A DNA stretch of 64,000 bases from Xanthomonas sp. AM6. Lineage in GTDB: Bacteria > Pseudomonadota > Gammaproteobacteria > Xanthomonadales > Xanthomonadaceae. Within the stretch, counting starts at the first letter, position 1, and every line of letters begins with the position of its first letter. The DNA lies in NCBI RefSeq assembly GCF_025665335.1, contig NZ_CP106869.1:4614501-4678500 (forward strand). The letters run 5' to 3'. Position numbers and translations under genes: made by a program. Under the pieces are notes generated by a model. That model was not told where the DNA came from. It searched no databases and saw nothing but the letters and a program-made list of their open reading frames with translations. Shown piece by piece: positions 738 to 55,140 of the stretch.

Positions 738-2705
738 ATGCCGAAGCTGTCGAGAGTGTCCGCCGTTTGCATCCTGTGTCTGGCCCTTCCTGCCGCAGCG
801 CAGGCGGCCGAGCTGATCCCCAAACAGCTGGCCGGCCCGCCCGAGGAGTTCGCGCAGATGCGCGCGCCGGCGCCGGCCGAGGCCGCGATCCTGTCCAAGA
901 GCGCGTTGCTGCCGGTGGAATTCTCTTCCGCACGCAGCGGCGCGGCCGCGCAATGGCAGGCGACGCTGCCGGTGGAGAACGGCAAGCTGCGCTTCGTGCT
1001 GCTGTCCGGCGCGCACGACTGGCAACCGCAACTGCATGCGCCCGGCGCAGCGAACGCACGCGCCAGTGCCGCGAGCATCGTGCCAAACGCCATCGCCACC
1101 CGCCTGGGCAGCGGCGACGCCGCGCTGCCGGCGCGCGAATACCGCGTGGACGCGGCCGCCAATGGCGACTGGACGCTGACCCTGCGCGCCGACGGCGCCG
1201 ATCCGCAACGCGGCTACCTGCTGATGGAAGGCGATGCGCGCACCCAGCTGGCGTCCTATCCCAGCGATCGCCGGCAGCTGCGCAGCGGCCAGCGCATCGG
1301 CCTGACCGCGCTGCTCGGCGGCACCGACAGCCACGGCGCCACTGCGCTGGGCGCCAATGCCGGGCGCATCCGCGATGCGCAGCTGCGCGTCACCGCGCCC
1401 GACGGCACGGTGACGCAGTGGCCGATGGCCGACGACGGCCGCCATGGCGACGGCGCCGCCGGCGATGGCGTCTATGCCGGCGATTTCCCGGCGAAGGCGC
1501 CGGGCAGCTATCTCGCGCAGGTGGTGGTGCACGGCGAGGACGCCGCCGGCCAGGCCTTCGTGCGCACCGCCGAACACGTGTTGCCGGTGCTGGACACGTC
1601 GCTGCGCATCGCCGCCGACGCGGTGGCCGCCAGCGCGCAGGCCGGCACGCGGCTGGCGCTGCCGATCCCGGTCAGTGCCGACGGCCAGGCGCCGGCGCAC
1701 TACCGCGTGCTCGGCGAACTGTGGGGCACCGGCCGCGACGGCGGCGCGGTGCCTGTGGCCTGGATCGGCGGCATGCTCGCGCCGCAGGACGGGCGCCTGC
1801 CGCTGAGCGTGGACGAGCGCTGGATCGTACGCGCCGGCGCGCGCGCGCCGTTCACGCTGCGCAACCTGCGCATCGAGGACCCGGACCATTTCGTGCCGCT
1901 GGCCACGCGCGCCACGCTGCCGCTGACCCTGCCGGCCCTGCGCCGCAGCAGCGTGGCGCGCGGCGGCGCGATCGACGCCAGCATGCGCATGGGCGAGCGT
2001 CCGGCGACGCTGCTGCGCGCGGCGACCGATGCGCAACCGCAGGCGACCGGCACGCGGCTGGTGCTGGTGCATGGCTATTGCTCCGGCGGGGTGTGGCCGG
2101 TGGCGCAGTTCAGCAATGCCTCGGCGTTCCTGGACGTCAACCAGAACCGCAGCAACGACCAGTTCGCGCAGCGGCTGGCGCAGTTCGGCAGCCAATGGAA
2201 TTCCTTCGGCACGGTGGCGCACAGCCAGGGCGGCATGGCCGCGCTGCACCTGTACAGCTACTACTGGAGCGGGCTGGACAACGCCAGCGGCGGCCGCGTG
2301 ATGCAGTCGGTGGGCACGCCCTACCAGGGCACCAACCTGGCCGGCATCCTGGCCACGGTGGGCTCGTGGTTCGGCGTGGGCTGCGGCAGCAACAGCGACC
2401 TGAGCTACGACGGCGCCAAGGCCTGGCTGGCCGGTATCCCCACCTCGGCACGGGCGCAGGTCAACTACTACACCACCTCCTTCGCCAAGACCAACTGGTA
2501 CACCAACGACTACTGCAACGCAGCCTCGGACCTGGTGCTGGACGATCCGGAGGACGGTACCGTCGAGCAGGTCAACGCGCAGCTGCCGGGCGGGATCAAC
2601 CGCGGCCACACCACCGGCCAGTGCCACACCACCGGCATGCGCGATCCGGCGCAGTACCTGGATGCCAGCCGCAATGCGACGATGAATGCCAATGCGGCGC
2701 GGTGA
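738..2705 (+). CDS. Secreted lipase-like alpha/beta hydrolase (choice-of-anchor X / 'conditioned medium factor' type)
   Basis: A 655-residue predicted secreted protein. The start at 738 is chosen because it gives a clean signal peptide (MPKLSRVSAV followed by a hydrophobic stretch ending AAAQAAEL) and has GGAGAG a few bases upstream; an in-frame ATG at 660 would add 26 unlikely residues. The N-terminal two thirds contain Ig-like segments (for example LTALLGGTDSHGA and DGVYAGDFPAKAPGSYLAQV), typical of the choice-of-anchor X family. The C-terminal third is an alpha/beta hydrolase core with LVLVHGYCSGG and the nucleophile elbow AHSQGG, followed by SVGTPYQGT, as in lipases. Relatives in Xanthomonadaceae are, as I recall, labelled conditioned medium factor. 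The substrate is unknown. It stands alone between metE and a convergent efflux operon. Confidence 0.8.
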   Translation: MPKLSRVSAVCILCLALPAAAQAAELIPKQLAGPPEEFAQMRAPAPAEAAILSKSALLPVEFSSARSGAAAQWQATLPVENGKLRFVLLSGAHDWQPQLHAPGAANARASAASIVPNAIATRLGSGDAALPAREYRVDAAANGDWTLTLRADGADPQRGYLLMEGDARTQLASYPSDRRQLRSGQRIGLTALLGGTDSHGATALGANAGRIRDAQLRVTAPDGTVTQWPMADDGRHGDGAAGDGVYAGDFPAKAPGSYLAQVVVHGEDAAGQAFVRTAEHVLPVLDTSLRIAADAVAASAQAGTRLALPIPVSADGQAPAHYRVLGELWGTGRDGGAVPVAWIGGMLAPQDGRLPLSVDERWIVRAGARAPFTLRNLRIEDPDHFVPLATRATLPLTLPALRRSSVARGGAIDASMRMGERPATLLRAATDAQPQATGTRLVLVHGYCSGGVWPVAQFSNASAFLDVNQNRSNDQFAQRLAQFGSQWNSFGTVAHSQGGMAALHLYSYYWSGLDNASGGRVMQSVGTPYQGTNLAGILATVGSWFGVGCGSNSDLSYDGAKAWLAGIPTSARAQVNYYTTSFAKTNWYTNDYCNAASDLVLDDPEDGTVEQVNAQLPGGINRGHTTGQCHTTGMRDPAQYLDASRNATMNANAAR

Positions 2706-12011: not shown

Positions 12012-12415
12012 AATGTAGGAGCGGCTTCAGCCGCGACAGGCGTTACCGGTAGGGCTTGTCGCGACTGAAGTCGCTCCTACAGGGACTTGCGGTGAGCCAA
12101 TCGGGTGCGCTGTGGGAGGACTTCGGCCCCGACGCCATACGGCATGGGAAAGTGCACCTCTCCGCTCGTCGCGACTGAAGTCGCTCCTACAGGGACTTGC
12201 GGTGAGCCAATCGGGTGCCCTGTGGGAGGGACTTCAGTCCCGACGCCATGCGGCATGGGAAAGCGTCCCTCTCCGCTCGTCGCGACTGAAGTCGCTCCCA
12301 CAGGGACTTGCGGCGAGCCAATCGGGTGCGCTGTGGGAGGGACTTCAGTCCCGACGCCGTGCGGCATGGGAAAGTGCACCGCTTCGCTCGTCGCGGCTGA
12401 AGCCGCTCCTACAAA
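12012..12415. repeat. REP array: three tandem 110-111 bp units
   Basis: A region without genes is made of REP-like palindromes. The phrase GCGACTGAAGTCGCTCC starts at 12061, 12171 and 12282, and a GCGGCTGAAG variant is at about 12393, so units repeat every 110-111 bp. Each unit holds one REP core, the linker AGGGACTTGCGGTGAGCCAA, an inverted diverged REP (GTGGGAGGGACTTCAGTCCC), and a GGCATGGGAAAG linker. The copies differ by scattered changes. No open reading frame here looks real. Confidence 0.9.
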
Positions 12416-20058: not shown

Positions 20059-20391
20059 TCAGCCCAGGTGCGCGCGCACTGCTTCGTCGATCTTAGCCGG
20101 CGGCACGAAGCCGGGCACCCGCGCCACTTCCTCGCCCTGGCGGAACAGCATCAGCGTCGGGGTCTGGCGCAGGCCCTGGGCGCGGAAGAAGTCCTCGCCC
20201 ACGTCCTCCATCTTCACCTTCAGCAAGGTCACGCCCTGCGCGCTGTCGCTCTCGGCGAAGCGCTCCAGCGACTTGTCGAGCATGCGGCAGCCGGGGCAGT
20301 TGTCCTTGTTGAAATCGGCCAGCACGCGCGGATGCGCGGCGATGGCGTCGGCGAACTGTTCGGCGGTGGCGACGGTGATGGTGGTGAACAT
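20059..20391 (-). CDS. Thioredoxin-family protein in nrd operon
   Basis: A 110-residue thioredoxin-fold protein with active site CPGC (Cys32, Cys35) after ADFNKDN, and the cis-proline loop RQTPTLMLF. The active-site sequence differs from the common CGPC. It is the last gene of a run nrdA, nrdB, flavodoxin, thioredoxin on one strand, so it is a good candidate for the electron donor re-reducing the C-terminal Cys pair of NrdA. The start MFTTITVA is chosen from the thioredoxin fold; the frame stays open well upstream, but that part overlaps the flavodoxin gene end and has no family match. Confidence 0.88.
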   Translation of the reverse strand: MFTTITVATAEQFADAIAAHPRVLADFNKDNCPGCRMLDKSLERFAESDSAQGVTLLKVKMEDVGEDFFRAQGLRQTPTLMLFRQGEEVARVPGFVPPAKIDEAVRAHLG

Positions 20392-20476
20392 GGAGCGGAA
20401 CCTTGTCTGGTGTCGGGGAATGGCCGCGCAGGAGTGAAGGCGCCGGCGCTGCCTTGAAACGATGGGGAATGCGGCG

Positions 20477-21049
20477 TCAGCCGCTGCCGTGCAGCGGCAA
20501 CGCCATCGGCACGAATCCGGCGGACCCGCCGGCCGCGGGCTCGGCAGCGGCTGGCGCAGTCGCCGACGCGGAGCCGCCCGCCGCCGCCGCACGCGCGGCG
20601 CGCAGCACCAGCACCCGCGCGCACCAGGCATCGATCGCCGCGCTGTCGCGCTCGCCGTGCGGCATCTGTTCGATCTCCAGCAACGGATAGGCGCTGTCGA
20701 AGAAACGGGCGATGCGCTTGACCGCGCCGCAGTAGTACTCCAGCCCCCACTGCGTCTCGCCGGTACCGAACGCCGCCACCTCGATCGCCTTGCCGGTCGC
20801 CTCGACCAGCTCGGCGATGTAGCGCTTCATCTCCGCCGGGGTGCGCCCGGCGTTGTCGCTCCAGCTGCCGAGCAGGTGCAGGTCGAACCTGGCCGCATGC
20901 GCGGCATCGCCGAGCGCGCCGTGCAGGGTCTGCATGTCGGTATGGATCACCGTCACCCGATGCCCCGCCGCCTCGCACTGCGCCTGCACGCGGCGGGCGA
21001 CGTCGCGGGTGTTGCCGCTGAGCGAGGCGTAGGCTAGCAGGACGTTCAT
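20477..21049 (-). CDS. Flavodoxin-like protein in nrd operon
   Basis: A 190-residue flavodoxin. The FMN phosphate loop is at the N-terminus (AYASLSGNTRDVARR, residues 6-20), followed by LLGSWSDNAG and AAFGTGETQWGLEYYCGAV, which would bind the isoalloxazine ring. The last 45 residues are an Ala/Gly/Pro-rich extension. It lies about 185 bp after nrdB on the same strand. NrdI flavodoxins activate class Ib Mn enzymes, but this protein is longer and is not NrdI-like in its phosphate loop, so a role in reducing the diferric-tyrosyl cofactor of the class Ia NrdB is an inference from position. Confidence 0.87.
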   Translation of the reverse strand: MNVLLAYASLSGNTRDVARRVQAQCEAAGHRVTVIHTDMQTLHGALGDAAHAARFDLHLLGSWSDNAGRTPAEMKRYIAELVEATGKAIEVAAFGTGETQWGLEYYCGAVKRIARFFDSAYPLLEIEQMPHGERDSAAIDAWCARVLVLRAARAAAAGGSASATAPAAAEPAAGGSAGFVPMALPLHGSG

Positions 21050-21051
21050 GG

Positions 21052-21238
21052 GGCCGGGATTGGGGATTGGGGATTGGGGGATTCGGAATTGGTAAAAGCG
21101 GGACCGTGGCTGTTACCGATCGCGCCTCACAAAACTCCGGATCGCTGCTTCTCAGGTCAATGAGTCGGAGAGAGATCGGGGATTGGGAAAGGCGGGCTCG
21201 GGATCGCTTTTGCCAATCCCCAATCCCGGCCCCTCACA
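21052..21238. repeat. Inverted G-rich heptamer tracts between nrdB and flavodoxin genes
   Basis: GGGATTG heptamers near 21056-21088 and their inverse (CCAATCCCCAATCCC) near 21216-21236 face each other about 135 bp apart. In the nrd transcript they would pair to form a stem of about 20 bp enclosing the intercistronic region. Another heptamer tract in the first orientation begins near 21178. The elements also carry the tail GGTAAAAGCGG. Confidence 0.75.
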
Positions 21239-22274
21239 GATCGTCGAATCCGTTGTCCGAATTGGTCTTCTTGTAGCTGGCGTTGCGCATCTCGAAGAAG
21301 TCGGTCTTGGTCTCGGTGAAGTTGTCCGCGTAGGCCTTGATCCACGGCATCACGTTGTCGCTGGCGTCGGTGTACAGCTTCTCGATGCCGAGCATGCCGG
21401 ACATCTTGTTGGCGCGGTACTTCACGTACTGGATCATCTCGTCCACGTCGATGCCCTCGATGCCGTCGAGCACTTCCGAGGACCACTCGGTCTCCAGCCG
21501 GATCGCGTGCTCGAATGCCTGGTGCACGTAGTCGGTCAGTTCGTTGGTCTGCAGCTCGGCGTTCTCGCCGATGATCGCGCGGATCAGCTCGCTGATGAAC
21601 TTGGTGTGGGCCAGCTCGTCGCGGTTGATGAAGCTGATGATCTTGCCGGTGCCGGTCATGCGGTTCTGCCGCACCAGGTTGTAGAAGTAGGCGAAGCCGG
21701 AATAGAAGTTGATGCCTTCCAGGATCGAGGACTGGATCAGCGAGCGCAGCAGGGTCTCGGCGGTCTTCTCGCGCATGAAGTCGTCGTAGGCCTGCATGAT
21801 CGGCTGGTTGCGCGCGATGATGGTCGGGTGCGTGCGCGCGATCTCGAACACGCGGTTCTGGTCGGCCAGCCCGGCGATGGACGCCAGCACGTAGGAATAG
21901 CTCTCGTTGTGGATCACTTCCTGCTGGCCGATGATCGCCGCGTTGGCGTGCGCGGCCGGGTCGGTGATGTATTCGGCGACGTTGTAGATGAAGCGCGTCT
22001 GCGGCGAATCCAGCGTGGCCAGCAGGCCGATGATCGAGTCGTAGGCATTCTTCTCGCGCGCCGACAGCTCGCCGTACTGCTTGGCGTCGCCCTTCATGTC
22101 CACCTCGTCGGGGATCCAGAAGTTGGTCGACAGTTCCTTGTAGGCCCGGTAGAACGACGGATACGGGATGTCGTTCCAGTTGAGGATGCCGCTGGTGGTG
22201 CCGTTGATGATCCCGGTGGAGCGGTTGGGATGCATCGGTTCGAGGATCTTGATGCGGTCGAGCGCGATGGCCAT
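21234..22274 (-). CDS. nrdB: Class Ia ribonucleoside-diphosphate reductase, beta subunit
   Basis: A 346-residue radical-generating subunit. All cofactor residues are present by comparison with E. coli NrdB: metal ligands Asp89 (ATLDS), Glu119 and His122 (QEVIH), Glu186 (ILEGINFY), Glu220 and His223 (NRDELAH), and the radical tyrosine Tyr126 (NESYSY). The C-terminus (NSDNGFDDL) resembles the tail that docks on NrdA. The start at MAIALDRIKI fits family alignment; an upstream frame of 21 codons is not conserved. It lies 122 bp after nrdA on the same strand and would form the alpha2beta2 enzyme making dNDPs. Confidence 0.97.
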   Translation of the reverse strand: MAIALDRIKILEPMHPNRSTGIINGTTSGILNWNDIPYPSFYRAYKELSTNFWIPDEVDMKGDAKQYGELSAREKNAYDSIIGLLATLDSPQTRFIYNVAEYITDPAAHANAAIIGQQEVIHNESYSYVLASIAGLADQNRVFEIARTHPTIIARNQPIMQAYDDFMREKTAETLLRSLIQSSILEGINFYSGFAYFYNLVRQNRMTGTGKIISFINRDELAHTKFISELIRAIIGENAELQTNELTDYVHQAFEHAIRLETEWSSEVLDGIEGIDVDEMIQYVKYRANKMSGMLGIEKLYTDASDNVMPWIKAYADNFTETKTDFFEMRNASYKKTNSDNGFDDL

Positions 22275-22396: not shown

Positions 22397-24811
22397 TCAG
22401 CTCGAGCACCACTCGCATTCGCTGATGTCGATATCGTTGGAGCGCACGTAGTAGGTGGTCTTCAGGCCTTCCTTCCACGCGGTCATGTGCAGGTCCAGCA
22501 GGGTGCTGGCGCGGATGCCGCTGGGCACGTAGAAGTTGAAGCTGATCGACTGGTCGACGTGGCGCTGGCGGCGCGCGTTCTGGCGCACGCTGGCGAACTG
22601 GTCCACCCGGTAGGCGCCCTTCTCGTAGTACGGGTAGGTGTCCACGGTCAGGCCCGGCGCCACCACCGGACGGCGGAAGTCCTTCTTTTCCTCGTAGTAG
22701 AACGCGCTGTAGATCGGGTCGATCGAGGCGGTGGAGCCGGCGATCTGCGCGGTACTCATGTTCGGCGCCACCGCCACCATCCACGCGTTGCGCACGCCGT
22801 TGATGCTGACCTGCGCGGCCAGTTCCTGCCACTCGGGGCTGGTATAGCCGCGCTTGCTGAAGTACTCGCCGTTCTGCCAGTCGCTGCCCTTGAACACCTT
22901 GTAGGCGCCCTTCTCCTTGGCCAGCGCCAGGCTCGCCTGGATGGTCAGGTAGTTGATGCGCTCGTAGAGCTCGTCGCTGTAGTCCTCGGCCTGCTTGGAA
23001 TTCCAGTCGATGCCCTTCTGCGCCAGCAGGTGGTGCCAGCCGAACGTGCCCAGGCCGATCGCGCGGTACTTCTGGTTGGTGATGGTGGCCTGCGGCACCG
23101 GCAGGTCGTTGAGATCGATCACGTTGTCGAGCATGCGCACCTGCACGCGGATCAGCCGCTCCAGCACGTCCGGCGAGAGCAGGTCCGGCTGCGCGGTGAC
23201 CGCGCGGCCCAGGTTCACCGAGGACAGGTTGCACACGACGAAGTCGCCGGCCTGCTTGGTGGTCACGATCTGGTCGCCGCTGATCATCTCCTGGATGACC
23301 CGGGTCGGGCTCATGTTCTGCAGGATCTCGGTGCACAGGTTGCTGGAATAGACCATGCCCTGGTGCTTGTTCGGGTTCATGCGATTGACTTCGTCGCGAT
23401 AGAACATGAACGGGTTGCCGGTCTCCAGCTGGCTGACCATGATCCGCTTGAACATGTCGATGGCCTTGACCACCTTGCGGCCGATGCGCTCGTCGGCCAC
23501 CACTTCCTCGTAGCGGGCGCGGAAGCTGCCTTCGCCGCGCTTCTCGTCGAAGAAGTCCTGCAGGTACCAGCCCTTGACCTCCTTCACCTCGTGCGGGTCG
23601 AACAGGTACCACTCGCCGCGGCGTTCCACCGCTTCCATGAAGATGTCCGGCACGCACACCGCGGTGAACACGTCGTGCGCGCGCAGGCGCTGGTCGCCGT
23701 TGTTCAGGCGCAGGTCCAAGAACGCCTCGATGTCGCGGTGCCAGATGTCCAGGTACACGGCGATGGCGCCCTTGCGCTGGCCGAGCTGGTCCACCGACAC
23801 CGCGGTGTTGTTGAGCTGCTTGATCCACGGCACCACGCCGCCGCTGGAGTTCTTGACCCCGCGGATCGCCGAGCCGGACGACCGCACGTAGCCCAGGTAG
23901 GCGCCGACGCCGCCGCCGTGCTTGGACACGCGCGCCACGTCGGTGTTGGAGTCGTAGATGCCCTGCAGGCTGTCGTCGACGGTGTCGATGAAGCAGCTCG
24001 ACAGCTGCCCGCCGATCTTGCCGGCGTTGGCCAGCGTCGGCGTGGCCACGGTCATGTACAGGTTGGACAGCGCCCAGTAGGCCTCGCCGACCAGCTGCAT
24101 GCGCCGCTCGCGCGGCTTCTCGTCCTGCATCAGGTACAGCGCGATGGTCAGCCAGCGCTCCTGCGGCAGTTCGTAGACCTTGCGCGAGTTGTCGGTGGCC
24201 AGGTAGCGCGTGGCCAGCAGGTACAGGCCGTTGTAGGCGAACAGCTTGTCGCGTTCCGGGTCGATCATCCGGCCGGCTTCGGCCAGTTCGTCCTTGGAGT
24301 AGTTCTTGAGGATGTCGATCGAGTACACGCCGCGGTCGGCCAGGCTTTCCTGCAGGCCGACGTAGGAGCCGTACTTCTCGCCGGCATCGTAGAAGCGGTT
24401 CTTGCTGGCGCGCTTGTACAGGCGGTGCAGGTACAGGCGCGCGGCGAAGTACTCCCACTCCGGCGTGGCGATGTCCACGCGCGACTCGGCCTCGCGGATC
24501 AGGTAGTCGACCATGTCGTCGGCCGACAGGCTTTCCTTCTTCTCCACGAAGGCGAAGGCCTTGCGCTCGTAGTCGGCCACGTCCAGCTGCGGGAACTCGG
24601 CGTGGATCCGGTCCAGGGTGCGCTGCAGGCGCGAGCGGTCGAAGGCCATGCGGCGGTTGCCGCCGTCCTTGACGATCCAGGTCACGGCGCGCTGGTCGTT
24701 GCTCGGCTCGCTGGCGGCCACGTCGGGCTGCGCGGCGGCGGCGGCAGGCGTGGAGTCGACGTCGGCGGCGTCGAGGGGGGCTGCGGCCGGCAGGCTGTGG
24801 GTCTGGCTCAT
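22397..24811 (-). CDS. nrdA: Class Ia ribonucleoside-diphosphate reductase, alpha subunit
   Basis: An 804-residue catalytic subunit. An N-terminal ATP-cone (TWIVKDGGNRRMAFDRSRLQ) provides allosteric activity control. Catalytic motifs follow: SSCFIDTVDDS with the first active-site Cys, NLCTEIL with the radical Cys and Glu, and near the C-terminus the tyrosine pair in LKTTYYVRS. The protein ends SECEWCSS, the swinging Cys pair. The ATG at 24811 has GGAG 6 nt upstream; an in-frame TTG at 24823 overlaps that ribosome site and is less likely. It heads the nrdA-nrdB-flavodoxin-thioredoxin operon, preceded by a cobalamin riboswitch and NrdR-like boxes. Confidence 0.97.
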   Translation of the reverse strand: MSQTHSLPAAAPLDAADVDSTPAAAAAQPDVAASEPSNDQRAVTWIVKDGGNRRMAFDRSRLQRTLDRIHAEFPQLDVADYERKAFAFVEKKESLSADDMVDYLIREAESRVDIATPEWEYFAARLYLHRLYKRASKNRFYDAGEKYGSYVGLQESLADRGVYSIDILKNYSKDELAEAGRMIDPERDKLFAYNGLYLLATRYLATDNSRKVYELPQERWLTIALYLMQDEKPRERRMQLVGEAYWALSNLYMTVATPTLANAGKIGGQLSSCFIDTVDDSLQGIYDSNTDVARVSKHGGGVGAYLGYVRSSGSAIRGVKNSSGGVVPWIKQLNNTAVSVDQLGQRKGAIAVYLDIWHRDIEAFLDLRLNNGDQRLRAHDVFTAVCVPDIFMEAVERRGEWYLFDPHEVKEVKGWYLQDFFDEKRGEGSFRARYEEVVADERIGRKVVKAIDMFKRIMVSQLETGNPFMFYRDEVNRMNPNKHQGMVYSSNLCTEILQNMSPTRVIQEMISGDQIVTTKQAGDFVVCNLSSVNLGRAVTAQPDLLSPDVLERLIRVQVRMLDNVIDLNDLPVPQATITNQKYRAIGLGTFGWHHLLAQKGIDWNSKQAEDYSDELYERINYLTIQASLALAKEKGAYKVFKGSDWQNGEYFSKRGYTSPEWQELAAQVSINGVRNAWMVAVAPNMSTAQIAGSTASIDPIYSAFYYEEKKDFRRPVVAPGLTVDTYPYYEKGAYRVDQFASVRQNARRQRHVDQSISFNFYVPSGIRASTLLDLHMTAWKEGLKTTYYVRSNDIDISECEWCSS

Positions 24812-24945
24812 GATGGTCTCCAAGCGTGGTGCACCGGCTGCCCGGCCCTCGCAGGCAGGACTCCGACCGGATCAGCAGCGTGGGGACGCGGTGTCGCAGC
24901 GACCGCGACGGCGCAGGCGCGAGCCTGCGGGCGGTCACCGCTTCA

Positions 24946-24978
24946 CCGACCATCTCCCCCCGGAGATTCAACGGTCGG
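24946..24978 (-). other. Leader hairpin between B12 riboswitch and nrdA
   Basis: In the nrdA transcript, CCGACC and AUCUCC pair with GGAGAU and GGUCGG to form a bulged hairpin. The 3' arm contains GAUGGUC, exactly complementary to GACCAUC lying between the nrdA ribosome site and its ATG. The hairpin may therefore be part of a switch that exposes or hides the start. No U-run follows it, which argues against an intrinsic terminator. Confidence 0.4.
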
Positions 24979-24989
24979 CGCCGCGCTGT

Positions 24990-25197
24990 GTGCATCGCGC
25001 GGCTGTCGGCAGGTCTTCGGGCTTATGGGCGGCGGCCGAATGGCCGGTTCCTAGCCCGTCGCTTCCCAAGGCGGGACGCCTCAGTGCGGGTGACGGGTTC
25101 GTTCCCAATTACCGCTGCGGGGCAGCGCCGGCCTGAGCGCTCGCGCGCCGCACCGGCTTCCCTTTTGATCCCGCAGCCTGGTGGCTGCTGGAACCGA
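24990..25197 (-). promoter_or_regulatory. Cobalamin (AdoCbl) riboswitch upstream of nrdA
   Basis: Read on the minus strand, the conserved elements of the cobalamin riboswitch appear in order: GGTTCC (25195-25190), AAAAGGGAAGCCGGTG (25166-25151), GCTGCCCCGCAGCGGTAA (25126-25109), a CCGCACTGAGG segment near 25085, TGGGAAGC (25068-25061), and a B12 box TAAGCCCGAAGACCTGCC (25025-25008). The expected stems around them are GC-rich and complementary. In known cases binding of adenosylcobalamin represses the downstream gene. Here that gene is a B12-independent class Ia reductase, which suggests a B12-dependent reductase elsewhere in the genome. The exact ends and the expression platform are not determined. 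Confidence 0.88.
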
Positions 25198-25200
25198 CCA

Positions 25201-25214
25201 CCACAAGATAGTGG
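25201..25214. promoter_or_regulatory. NrdR-like box 1 (overlaps -10)
   Basis: CCACAAGATAGTGG resembles the NrdR box (consensus about ACACWATATATWGTGT) but is 2 bp shorter in the centre. It overlaps the predicted -10 hexamer of the nrdA promoter. Its centre lies 33 bp, about three helical turns, from the second box. Confidence 0.55.
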
Positions 25215-25233
25215 GGTGCCCGGGCGTCGTCAA
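25205..25233 (-). promoter_or_regulatory. Sigma70-type promoter of the nrdA operon
   Basis: On the minus strand a TTGACG -35 hexamer (25233-25228) and TATCTT -10 hexamer (25210-25205) are separated by exactly 17 bp. Transcription would start near 25198, just before the first conserved riboswitch bases. Confidence 0.7.
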
Positions 25234-25248
25234 CGCTAAATGTAGTCG
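25233..25248. promoter_or_regulatory. NrdR-like box 2 (upstream of -35)
   Basis: ACGCTAAATGTAGTCG matches the 16-bp NrdR palindrome in most of its core (CTA-ATGTAGT). It abuts the -35 hexamer of the nrdA promoter, as expected for the tandem boxes bound by NrdR. Confidence 0.6.
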
Positions 25249-25549
25249 AAAAGCCGAAAACCCAAGCGGGGCAAGAGTTTGCCGTGGCGACGCGGCGAAA
25301 CCCCGCGGCGGGACGCTGGATCCGGCCTGGAACGGGCCACAGCGCCCATGCCGCAAAGGCCTCGACGCGGCCACCGGGGGCTGGCGGCGCGCGCCGGCCC
25401 GCGCCGGTTGCGCAGGACACCGGCAACCGGCACGCCGGGCAGGCCGAACGGCGGCCGCAGCGGCCGCCGCCAGCCGTGTGCGGCCCGGGTCGCACGAACA
25501 TGCGGTGCAAGCGGCGCTGGCCGCCGTAGGGACGCGGGTCCCGCTCAGT

Positions 25550-29751: not shown

Positions 29752-30522
29752 TCAGCCCGCCGGCCAGCGCTGCAGCAACAGCGGCAAGGCCAGTGCGGCG
29801 GGATCGCGCCAGTGCAGGTCGGCGTGCGCGGACAGGCCGCTGGGTTCGGGATTGATCTCGACCACGCAGGCGCCGCGCTCCTTGGCGCGCAACGGCAGCC
29901 CGGCGGCCGGATACACCAGGCCGGAACTGCCGATCACCAGCACCAGGTCGGCTGCGTCGGCGGCGCTCTCGGCGCGCGCCCAGTCGGCGGCCGGCAGCGC
30001 CTCGCCGAACCACACCACGCCCGGGCGCACCGCGCCGCCGCAGGCCGCGCAGGCCGGCGGCGCCAGGCGCTGGGTCGGCGCCTGCACGTCGATCGGCGGC
30101 AGCAGCCCGTGCCAGGCCTGGCCGCAGTCGCTGCAGCGCAACGCCGACAGGCGCCCGTGCACGTGCGCGGCGACCTCGCTGCCGGCGCGCTGGTGCAGGT
30201 CGTCCACGTTCTGGGTCGCCAGCGTGGTGCTCTTCAGTCCGGCCAGGCGCACCAGGGCGTGATGCCCGGCATGCGGCTGCGCCTGCGCGACGATCGCCAT
30301 GCGCCAGCGGTACCAGCCCCAGACCAGCGCCGGGTCCGCCCGCCAGGCGTCCTCGGTGGCCAGTTGCTGCGGATCGAAGCGCGCCCACAGGCTGTCGTCC
30401 TGGCCGCGGAAGGTCGGCACCCCGCTCTCGGCGGACATGCCCGCGCCGGTAAGCACCAGCAGGCGGCGCGCGCCCTGGATGAAGGCGGCCACGGTATCGG
30501 CGTTGTAGGCGGAGCTGAGCAT
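29752..30522 (-). CDS. NAD-dependent protein deacylase, CobB-type (class III) sirtuin
   Basis: A 256-residue Sir2 protein when started at MLSSAYNADT. NAD motif GAGMSAESGVPTFRG is at residues 26-40, QNVDDLHQRAGS at 104-115, and catalytic His in HVHGRL. The zinc Cys pairs are SDCG with Cys130/Cys133 and CAACGG. WYRWRMAI places Tyr71 and Arg74 at the positions of the acyl-binding Tyr and Arg of CobB and SIRT5, predicting desuccinylase as well as deacetylase activity. The frame stays open 56 codons upstream, but that part lacks homology. A class II sirtuin is encoded 14 kb away. Confidence 0.88.
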   Translation of the reverse strand: MLSSAYNADTVAAFIQGARRLLVLTGAGMSAESGVPTFRGQDDSLWARFDPQQLATEDAWRADPALVWGWYRWRMAIVAQAQPHAGHHALVRLAGLKSTTLATQNVDDLHQRAGSEVAAHVHGRLSALRCSDCGQAWHGLLPPIDVQAPTQRLAPPACAACGGAVRPGVVWFGEALPAADWARAESAADAADLVLVIGSSGLVYPAAGLPLRAKERGACVVEINPEPSGLSAHADLHWRDPAALALPLLLQRWPAG

Positions 30523-30708
30523 GGCGCGCGCAAGAGTGATGGCCTTCGCACTATCACATCGGCCCAGTTCCGCCTCAATCTGCAGCACAGCAATGGCGCC
30601 GCGTCTGCACGGCAAAGGCAGCCCGGTACGAAGGCGATGCGGTCGCTGCCGCAATGGCATGCAGTCCATCGCCGTCATTTTTCCCGCCATCGTGATCGAG
30701 TGAGCCCT

Positions 30709-31056
30709 CTTGCTGTTGCTGTTGCTCTTGCTGTTGCTCTTGCTGTTGCTCTTGCTGTTGCTCTTGCTGTTGCTCTTGCTCTTGCTTTTGACTTACCGGG
30801 TTCCCTGCCGACGCGGTGGCCATGGCGGGGAAAAATCCCGAAGGGGCGACGCACATGGATGTGCGCCATTCGCGGCAGGGGGATGCCCCTGCCGCGATTC
30901 CTCGTCATGGGCGCGGACCCGGAGCACGCAGCGCGGAGGGCGCGAGGCAGGGCGTGCTTGACCAGCCTTCGGCTGTGGCAGAGCGCTTCTTTTGGTCACT
31001 TTTCTTTGCACGAGCAAAGAAAGTGACCGCGCTCAAGCGCGGAAGCTTCTGCTTTT
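30709..31056 (+). repeat. Structured intergenic repeat, copy A
   Basis: This fills most of a gene-free 870-bp stretch. In order it has a pyrimidine-rich (TTGCTSTTGCTC)n tract (30709-30788), CTTTTGACTTACCGGG, a hairpin around GCGCACAT/ATGTGCGC, a hairpin CGCGGCAGGGG/CCCCTGCCGCG (30871-30896), GCGGACCCGGAGC followed by GCGCGGAGGGCGCG, and a long hairpin GGTCACTTTTCTTTGC/GCAAAGAAAGTGACC (30994-31028). The same order recurs at 42756-43040 and, inverted, at 43096-43395. A truncated inverted trace (AAAGCTTTCGCC...) is at about 31199-31265. The short frames through it, including a poly-Leu one, are not taken as genes. Confidence 0.8.
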
Positions 31057-54607: not shown

Positions 54608-54689
54608 GGTTTCGGCTGCGCGGCGTCGGAGGGTGTGGGTGGGTTTCGGCCCGGACAGGATGCGCAGCCGGTGACTCCACCGCTGCGTT

Positions 54690-55140
54690 CGTCGCGACTG
54701 AAGTCGCTCCCACAGGGCTTGCGATCGCTTGCCGGGTGCGCTGTGAAAGGGGCCGGCCTTGGACCATCCCGCCCTGACAGGATCCGAAGCTGGCGAGTGT
54801 GCCGCTTCGTTCGTCGCGGCTGAAGCCGCTCCTACAGGGTTTGCGAGTGGCTGCAGCTCCTGTAGGAGGGGCTTCAGCCCCGACAGGATCCCGCAGCGGG
54901 TAATTCCACCGCCGCGTTTGTCGCGACTGGCGCCGCGCCACGGGGCTTGCGATCGGCTTGCCGGATGCGCTGTGGATGCTGCCTTGGGCCATCGGCCGTA
55001 ACAGGTCCCGACATTCGATGACTCCCCGCTTCGTTCGTCGCGGCTGAAGCCGCTCCTACAGGGTTGCGAGCAGGTGGCTCGTGCAGCACTCGCGACCTGC
55101 GGTCCGGGTGCACTGTGGGAGGGACTTCAGTCCCGACTGC
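54690..55140. repeat. Cluster of about six REP-like elements
   Basis: REP-like palindromes occur at about 54692, 54814, 54866, 54918 (degenerate), 55039 and 55113, mixing GCGACTGAAGTCGC, GCGGCTGAAGCCGC and GGGGCTTCAGCCCC types. Linkers such as TTGCGATCGCTTGCCGG and TGCGCTGTG are also repeated. This is the whole content of a 596-bp gap between convergent genes. Confidence 0.85.

Follow-up and report, generated by a model that had tools for sequence, protein, structure and literature searches.

A predicted cobalamin riboswitch and tandem NrdR-like boxes at the class I ribonucleotide reductase operon of Xanthomonas sp. AM6, and the association of the riboswitch with nrdJ among relatives

We analyzed a 64,000-nucleotide (nt) stretch of the genome of Xanthomonas sp. 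AM6 (contig NZ_CP106869.1, positions 4,614,501 to 4,678,500; hereafter the window), in which a class I ribonucleotide reductase (RNR) operon, nrdA-nrdB-flavodoxin-thioredoxin, lies on the minus strand behind a predicted cobalamin (B12) riboswitch and two NrdR-like boxes. The reading that we favor, with a probability of ~0.87, is that the riboswitch lowers nrdAB expression when adenosylcobalamin is plentiful, that the class II enzyme NrdJ takes over, and that a layer of NrdR control adds repression. Under this model, the leader RNA would bind plentiful adenosylcobalamin and act as an OFF switch, and the B12-dependent NrdJ would then supply deoxynucleotides, with nrdAB made when B12 is scarce. 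NrdR, presumably bound to two boxes three helical turns apart, would add repression by nucleotide levels. For the final step, a P13-like hairpin may be used: its loop would pair with loop L5 of the aptamer, and its base would compete with a downstream helix, P14.

The RNA element before nrdA was confirmed as a predicted cobalamin riboswitch. In a cmscan search of Rfam, the full RF00174 model (1-189) was matched at 100.2 bits (E 7.4e-24) against a gathering threshold of 31.5 bits, and this was the sole Rfam match at gathering level within the 64-kb window. Direct reading of the minus strand gave GGTTCC, AAAAGGGAAGCCGGTG, GCTGCCCCGCAGCGGTAA, GCACTG (25087-25082), and TGGGAAGC in this order, GCACTG standing at the B12-box position. 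A sequence-only reading had proposed a riboswitch from this order of motifs on the nrdA strand and had suggested the covariance search as a check; the motifs and the strong match both agree with it. An alignment of 26 copies from nrdJ-containing genomes (25 plus the window) defined 90 invariant positions. The window copy showed no violation of these, with the AAAAGGGAA region, the L5 loop, the B12 box, and the 3' core all conserved, and leave-one-out counts for the 26 copies were 0-4. The aptamer core was kept across loci of Xanthomonas, Luteimonas, and Pseudoxanthomonas.

Upstream of the aptamer, TTGACG (25233-25228) and TATCTT (25210-25205), separated by 17 base pairs (bp), form the sole sigma70-like site found in 24700-25500, where 50 shuffles of the interval gave an average of 0.0 sites. 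If TATCTT is the -10 element, transcription would start near 25199-25197, at the first bases of helix P1; in that case, the outermost pairs that the Rfam model draws for P1 would fall in promoter and box-2 DNA and hence be untranscribed. The transcript probably begins at P1; therefore, box 2 and the aptamer would abut. The window was scanned for NrdR-box pairs with a consensus for the NrdR box, at pair offsets of 31 and 32. Among 127,907 pair positions, the pair over this promoter ranked first (24.0 of 32; runner-up, 19.5), which bears out the proposal of tandem NrdR-like boxes over a promoter with 17-bp spacing. The starts of its boxes are 32 bp apart, and C and G are 9 bases apart within each box. 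Literature is cited here by PMC number. NrdR boxes are described as having conserved GC pairs at 9/18 and 40/49 and lying about three turns apart (PMC9110341), with a common spacer of 15-16 bp (PMC12051234), and the pair in the window fits both spacing rules. Two palindromic boxes about three helical turns apart thus overlap the promoter in the layout of an NrdR promoter, and motif and spacing suggest that NrdR binds here.

Furthermore, the host genome (one contig, 4.92 Mb) encodes the partners that the favored reading calls for. Judged by NrdA, the named relatives closest to it are Xanthomonas sp. AmX2, X. bonasiae, and further members of their group, the early-branching Xanthomonas. The nrdA-nrdB-flavodoxin-thioredoxin set is the only class I RNR found in the genome; NrdJ is encoded elsewhere in it (588 bits, with Pfam and NCBIfam in agreement), and no match to NrdD was found in the genome. 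NrdR (TIGR00244, 197.3 bits) and a MetH activation domain are also present. When 150 of 253 first-look candidates were scored, at least three cobalamin riboswitches were detected at E <= 0.001, before nrdA, btuB, and metE, and the BtuB behind its own riboswitch matched TIGR01779 at 653.4 bits. These three targets comprise the B12 receptor and, for each of the two B12-dependent enzymes tested (MetH and NrdJ), its B12-independent partner. A second NrdR-like pair, scoring 21.0 with boxes 31 bp apart, was located upstream of nrdJ. What the sequence-only reading had named for a genome search was found, namely nrdJ and nrdR with matching boxes (before nrdA and nrdJ), and a B12 receptor is encoded as well.

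The distribution of the riboswitch was compared with that of nrdJ among relatives. A contig scan for nrdA gave 185 relatives, the best 80 of which made up the set of loci with the nrdA type of the window (type 1). Their leaders were searched by nhmmer with ten aligned riboswitches, nine from an Rfam search of 18 loci and the tenth from the window, and 31 of the 80 were positive. NrdJ was above its curated cut-off in 26 of 50 genomes plus 3 of 30 genomes. One nrdJ-containing locus with 14 bp upstream (L055) was set aside, leaving 79 assessable leaders, which include two Listeria-labelled records, Halotalea, and Carnimonas. L064 (298 bp upstream) was kept and shows only part of the expected region, and a partial NrdJ (L058, 234.7 bits) was scored as absent by the cut-off. 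An intact switch was present in 25 of the 28 nrdJ-containing leaders and in none of the 51 nrdJ-lacking leaders, 6 of which have a damaged copy and 45 none. By contrast, the NrdR-like pair reached or exceeded the 99% level of 600 shuffles (19.5) in 78 of the 79 loci, at offsets of 31 and 32 only; the sole locus below that level was L025 (19.0). The boxes are present in loci with and without the switch alike; the DNA layer is thus constant, and it is the RNA layer whose presence varies with nrdJ. These results support an association, at the level of sequence, between an intact aptamer at nrdA and nrdJ across the family. The earlier proposal that the cell may switch between an oxygen-dependent enzyme and a class II enzyme is supported by this distribution, with three exceptions.

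The six damaged copies showed violations at 10 (L013), 13 (L016), 11 (L018), 16 (L020), 17 (L040), and 8 (L048) of the 90 invariant positions. L018, L020, and L040 have lost the L5 loop; L013 and L016 have a changed one, and L048 retains it. Whole-genome RF00174 scoring covered 56 of the 80 genomes, under the stricter filter settings applied over 40 genomes. Scores at nrdA were 78.5-112.3 bits in 25 nrdJ-containing genomes, and 72.7, 65.2, 63.5, 52.9, and 33.6 bits and no match in the six remnant genomes, the last being L020, whose nrdA leader gave no RF00174 match in a separate second scan either. The same six genomes have further cobalamin riboswitches, which scored 84.6 and 77.5; 76.4 and 37.3; 102.1 and 92.3; 82.2 and 70.0; 98.5, 86, and 70.1; and 101.2 and 98.5 bits, a span of 70.0-102.1 bits except for the 37.3-bit copy. 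This exception to persistence lies in the genome of L016 (G006, GPE 39; C1:3009362-3009587), and riboswitch decay in this nrdJ-less genome may extend beyond nrdA.

Remnants were also observed in the main Xanthomonas clade. In 17 genomes grouped with X. cannabis, and in X. maliensis, nrdJ was not above the cut-off. Nine of these 18 leaders were aligned (L019, L021, L022, L024, L025, L026, L031, L035, and L038), and in all nine the stretch from box 2 to nrdA still contains sequence homologous to the 3' end of the switch (CGACAGCACACCGC...GGCGGCC[G/A]TGG). The aptamer core was kept in none of the nine, and by eye the P13-like hairpin is kept in L021, L024, and L038. A sensitive nhmmer search of the switch-less leaders gave a best score of 9.2 bits. 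In the literature covered, we found no account of such a switch being lost repeatedly and by degrees in lineages without nrdJ.

A second type of class I nrdA gave a similar result. In the wider survey, NrdJ was above the cut-off in 108 of 120 family genomes. The second-type set consists of 20 upstream regions, two of which end at contig ends, and all 20 genes encode class I NrdA (TIGR02506, 683-727 bits; cut-off, 341). RF00174 was matched on the strand of the gene in 17 leaders; the switch was present in 17 of 17 with nrdJ and 0 of 3 without it, in a set not placed on the tree. Two additional nrdJ-lacking leaders, L115 (G124) and L117 (G096), gave no RF00174 match at E 0.05. Of seven genomes of the 20-region set first taken to lack nrdJ, four have NrdJ in two in-frame pieces together with the switch.

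Matches of 363-373 bits to NrdJ in Stenotrophomonas were considered as class II enzymes and rejected, since L091 and L092 are class I NrdA (TIGR02506, 721.6 and 718.3 bits). All 20 matches of this range scanned later are also class I NrdA (683-727 bits), and none was counted as nrdJ. As a separate observation, NrdJ was found in two in-frame pieces in 11 genomes (G002, G037, G060, G063, G098, G103, G106, G127, G130, G136, and G147), mostly broken at profile position 281/282 (slightly different in G037 and G130) with a long open insertion between, which is probably an intein at a shared site. At L009, a TSCPD-domain protein near nrdJ (957-1796, minus strand) aligns with the C-terminal end of the B12-dependent RNR PRK08665, and NrdJ there may be split into two genes.

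The region between the aptamer and nrdA was aligned for all 26 nrdJ-containing leaders; an earlier version with 16 of the 26 had left out ten, the most divergent among them. In the full alignment, the P13 stem was 99.1% paired with 18 two-sided changes (0 of 500 shuffles), and P14 was 92.8% paired with 9 two-sided changes (1 of 500 shuffles). The P13 loop reads GGGG in 16 leaders, GUGG in 5, GAGG in 2, GGAGG in 2, and GGAG in 1, and the GGGG of the window is complementary to the CCCC of L5. Kissing between L5 and L13 of a downstream hairpin is a feature of many cobalamin riboswitches. Such a contact is plausible here, although not uniform among the leaders. The 16-leader alignment had suggested that P13 and P14 are mutually exclusive; this was dropped, because the 26-leader alignment shows competition for a few bottom pairs. 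A leader open reading frame starting inside the P13-like hairpin was also dropped, since its ATG is absent in the close relatives L012 and L014.

Several observations weigh against the favored reading. On the RNA side, the loop differs from GGGG in 10 of 26 leaders, so a simple GGGG-CCCC kissing rule fails for part of the set; P13 and P14 can coexist when shortened, which leaves no clean either-or switch; and the window folds are near equal at -106.2 kcal/mol (full P14) and -104.7 kcal/mol (P13 forced). No intrinsic terminator was found in the leader, and simple attenuation by a U-tract hairpin was therefore dropped, translational or Rho-dependent control being likelier. On the comparative side, three nrdJ-containing loci lack a switch at nrdA (Halotalea L023, L054, and L059), and the missing nrdJ of L018 may reflect an incomplete metagenome-assembled genome. 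(The record of L059 is titled Bacillus subtilis SK7B5 and has a Stenotrophomonas-type nrdA locus; it is probably mislabelled or a mixed assembly.) The Fisher test for intact versus not intact switches gave p 1.3e-17, a value that overstates independence because the rows are related: on an NrdA tree built by a quick method, with 33 of its 78 inner branches left open and contrasts counted on starred branches, seven independent nrdJ contrasts comprised 4 concordant, 0 discordant, and 3 unchanged (sign test, p 0.125).

This last result leaves room for the alternative that a few clades share the pattern by common descent and not through functional coupling, all the more as the main Xanthomonas and Stenotrophomonas clades give many non-independent rows. 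We consider this improbable, since graded damage occurs near switch-bearing relatives on the NrdA tree (L013/L016; L020/L040; L048/L051/L083), most of the same genomes carry higher-scoring switches, presumably of the metE/btuB type, and the second class I nrdA type repeats the pattern. It is more doubtful still that the aptamer is a non-functional relic with nrdAB under NrdR alone. Damaged copies do exist, and NrdR-like boxes in loci of both kinds indicate that transcriptional control needs no switch, but the window copy is free of violations and scores 100.2 bits, the core is kept in three genera, and damage tracks the absence of nrdJ. An ON switch, or an RNA that is mainly processed or acts in trans, would suit the lack of a U-tract terminator and a ribosome site >120 nt beyond the P13-like hairpin, but it is just as hard to credit, given that btuB, metE, and nrdA are the set of targets expected for B12 repression and that published precedents propose repression (PMC3848588 and PMC545781).

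If the switch is an OFF switch at nrdAB, it may become a trap after loss of nrdJ, because B12 would then shut down the only RNR of the cell. Its inactivation would have to precede or accompany the loss of nrdJ, and its removal would be due to selection as well as drift. We hold this extension tentatively, at somewhat short of even odds. It predicts the asymmetry observed at type-1 loci, where 3 of 28 nrdJ-containing leaders go without a switch, a state that is evidently tolerated, whereas 0 of 51 nrdJ-lacking leaders have an intact one and other cobalamin switches in the six genomes compared mostly have higher scores. Genomes that carry an additional class I enzyme, for example those of Stenotrophomonas, would be under less constraint. 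Among these relatives, the switch is intact, damaged, or vestigial, and its state can be set against whether the partner enzyme is present; this amounts to a natural experiment. With it, one can test whether a regulatory RNA on an essential gene disappears through neglect or through selection, and what limits the loss of a B12-dependent enzyme.

The features of the leader and operon are listed in Table 1. NrdA and NrdB scored 1489.1 bits (NF006665; cut-off, 1057) and 492.8 bits (NF007184; cut-off, 310), respectively, and by these curated cut-offs they are assigned to class I RNR. NrdB resembles solved R2 proteins. The class Ia label, which implies a diiron tyrosyl cofactor, is putative, a flavodoxin and a thioredoxin-like protein being encoded alongside.

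Table 1. Predicted features of the nrdA leader and operon, in window coordinates
Feature	Position	Strand	Basis
NrdR-like box 1, CGACTACATTTAGCGT, overlaps the -35 end	25233..25248	-	best pair of the window scan; comparable pairs in relatives
sigma70-like promoter, TTGACG-17-TATCTT	25205..25233	-	motif scan; predicted start about 25199-25197
NrdR-like box 2, CCCCACTATCTTGTGG, over the -10	25201..25216	-	top-ranked pair; C/G spacing rule
Cobalamin riboswitch aptamer, RF00174	24991..25213	-	covariance match
P1 5' strand GTCGGT, partner GCCGAC 25010-25005	25193..25198	-	read from sequence; invariant in nrdJ-containing set
P5/L5, GCTGCCCCGCAGC, loop CCCC	25114..25126	-	covariance alignment; loop lost or altered in five of the six damaged copies
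B12-box core, GCACTG	25082..25087	-	covariance alignment and direct reading
Conserved GC-rich leader hairpin, GCCGCGCG...GCGCGGC	24980..25003	-	leader alignments
P13-like hairpin, covarying stem, loop GGGG 24961-24958	24945..24979	-	leader alignments
P14 helix, competes with P13 bottom pairs for three bases	24890..24947	-	folding and alignment
nrdA, class I RNR alpha subunit; ATG 24811, GGAGA 24821-24817	22397..24811	-	NF006665
nrdB, RNR beta subunit	21234..22274	-	NF007184
RNR-associated flavodoxin	20477..21049	-	TIGR01754, 177.0 bits (cut-off 163.8)
Thioredoxin-like protein (CPGC)	20059..20400	-	profile search and reading

Elsewhere in the window, tandem arrays at 12054-12413 and 54641-55070 have units of 111 and 229 bp and a common motif, GTCGCGACTGAAG. 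A hexamer/dodecamer tandem repeat (TTGCTCTTGCTG) at 30707-30790 corresponds to a Gln/Glu-rich run in a minus-strand open reading frame and lies near a Sir2-family gene (29752-30690).

The arrangement described here has likenesses in several known systems. A Streptomyces class Ia nrdABS operon is reportedly under a coenzyme B12 riboswitch, according to the title of a 2006 report by Borovok et al. (cited in PMC5962746), in agreement with the precedent named by the sequence-only reading. By that title alone, the likeness is a class Ia nrdAB operon under such a switch; the host there is an actinobacterium, whereas here a Xanthomonadaceae operon carries a flavodoxin and a thioredoxin. S. coelicolor also has nrdRJ (PMC9110341). 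In Listeria, nrdABI-trxL has the same operon layout and tandem NrdR boxes (PMC12051234). The NrdA proteins of the two Listeria-labelled records (L086 and L087) are 80-81% identical to that of the window; unlike the window, these loci have no riboswitch before nrdA and no nrdJ above the cut-off, and horizontal transfer of the operon is likely for these records. A cobalamin-regulon survey includes isozymes of B12-dependent enzymes among its classes; nrdA, ribonucleotide reductase, and Xanthomonadales are not matched in its main text (PMC3766115). No description of this arrangement in Xanthomonadaceae was found in the literature, which was covered in part, and an earlier mention may exist.

A published parallel is Propionibacterium acnes, where an NrdR box at the promoter is likewise combined with a cobalamin riboswitch in the nrdAB leader and premature termination, seen by RNA-seq, was proposed to favor NrdJ (PMC3848588). 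However, nrdAB has a single NrdR box there and a pair here, and P. acnes has an nrdDG riboswitch (PMC3848588), whereas no NrdD was found in the AM6 genome. In Desulfovibrio vulgaris and Desulfuromonas, a B12-element precedes nrdDG, and B12 was proposed to repress the B12-independent RNR in genomes that also encode NrdJ; the enzyme is class III NrdDG there and class I here, and the same regulation is stated to have been described earlier, in ref. 26 of that paper (PMC545781). The principle is thus already in print (PMC3848588 and PMC545781). The Xanthomonadaceae case adds a member and would extend two-layer control of an essential enzyme, by NrdR and a B12 riboswitch, to a family with many plant-associated bacteria.

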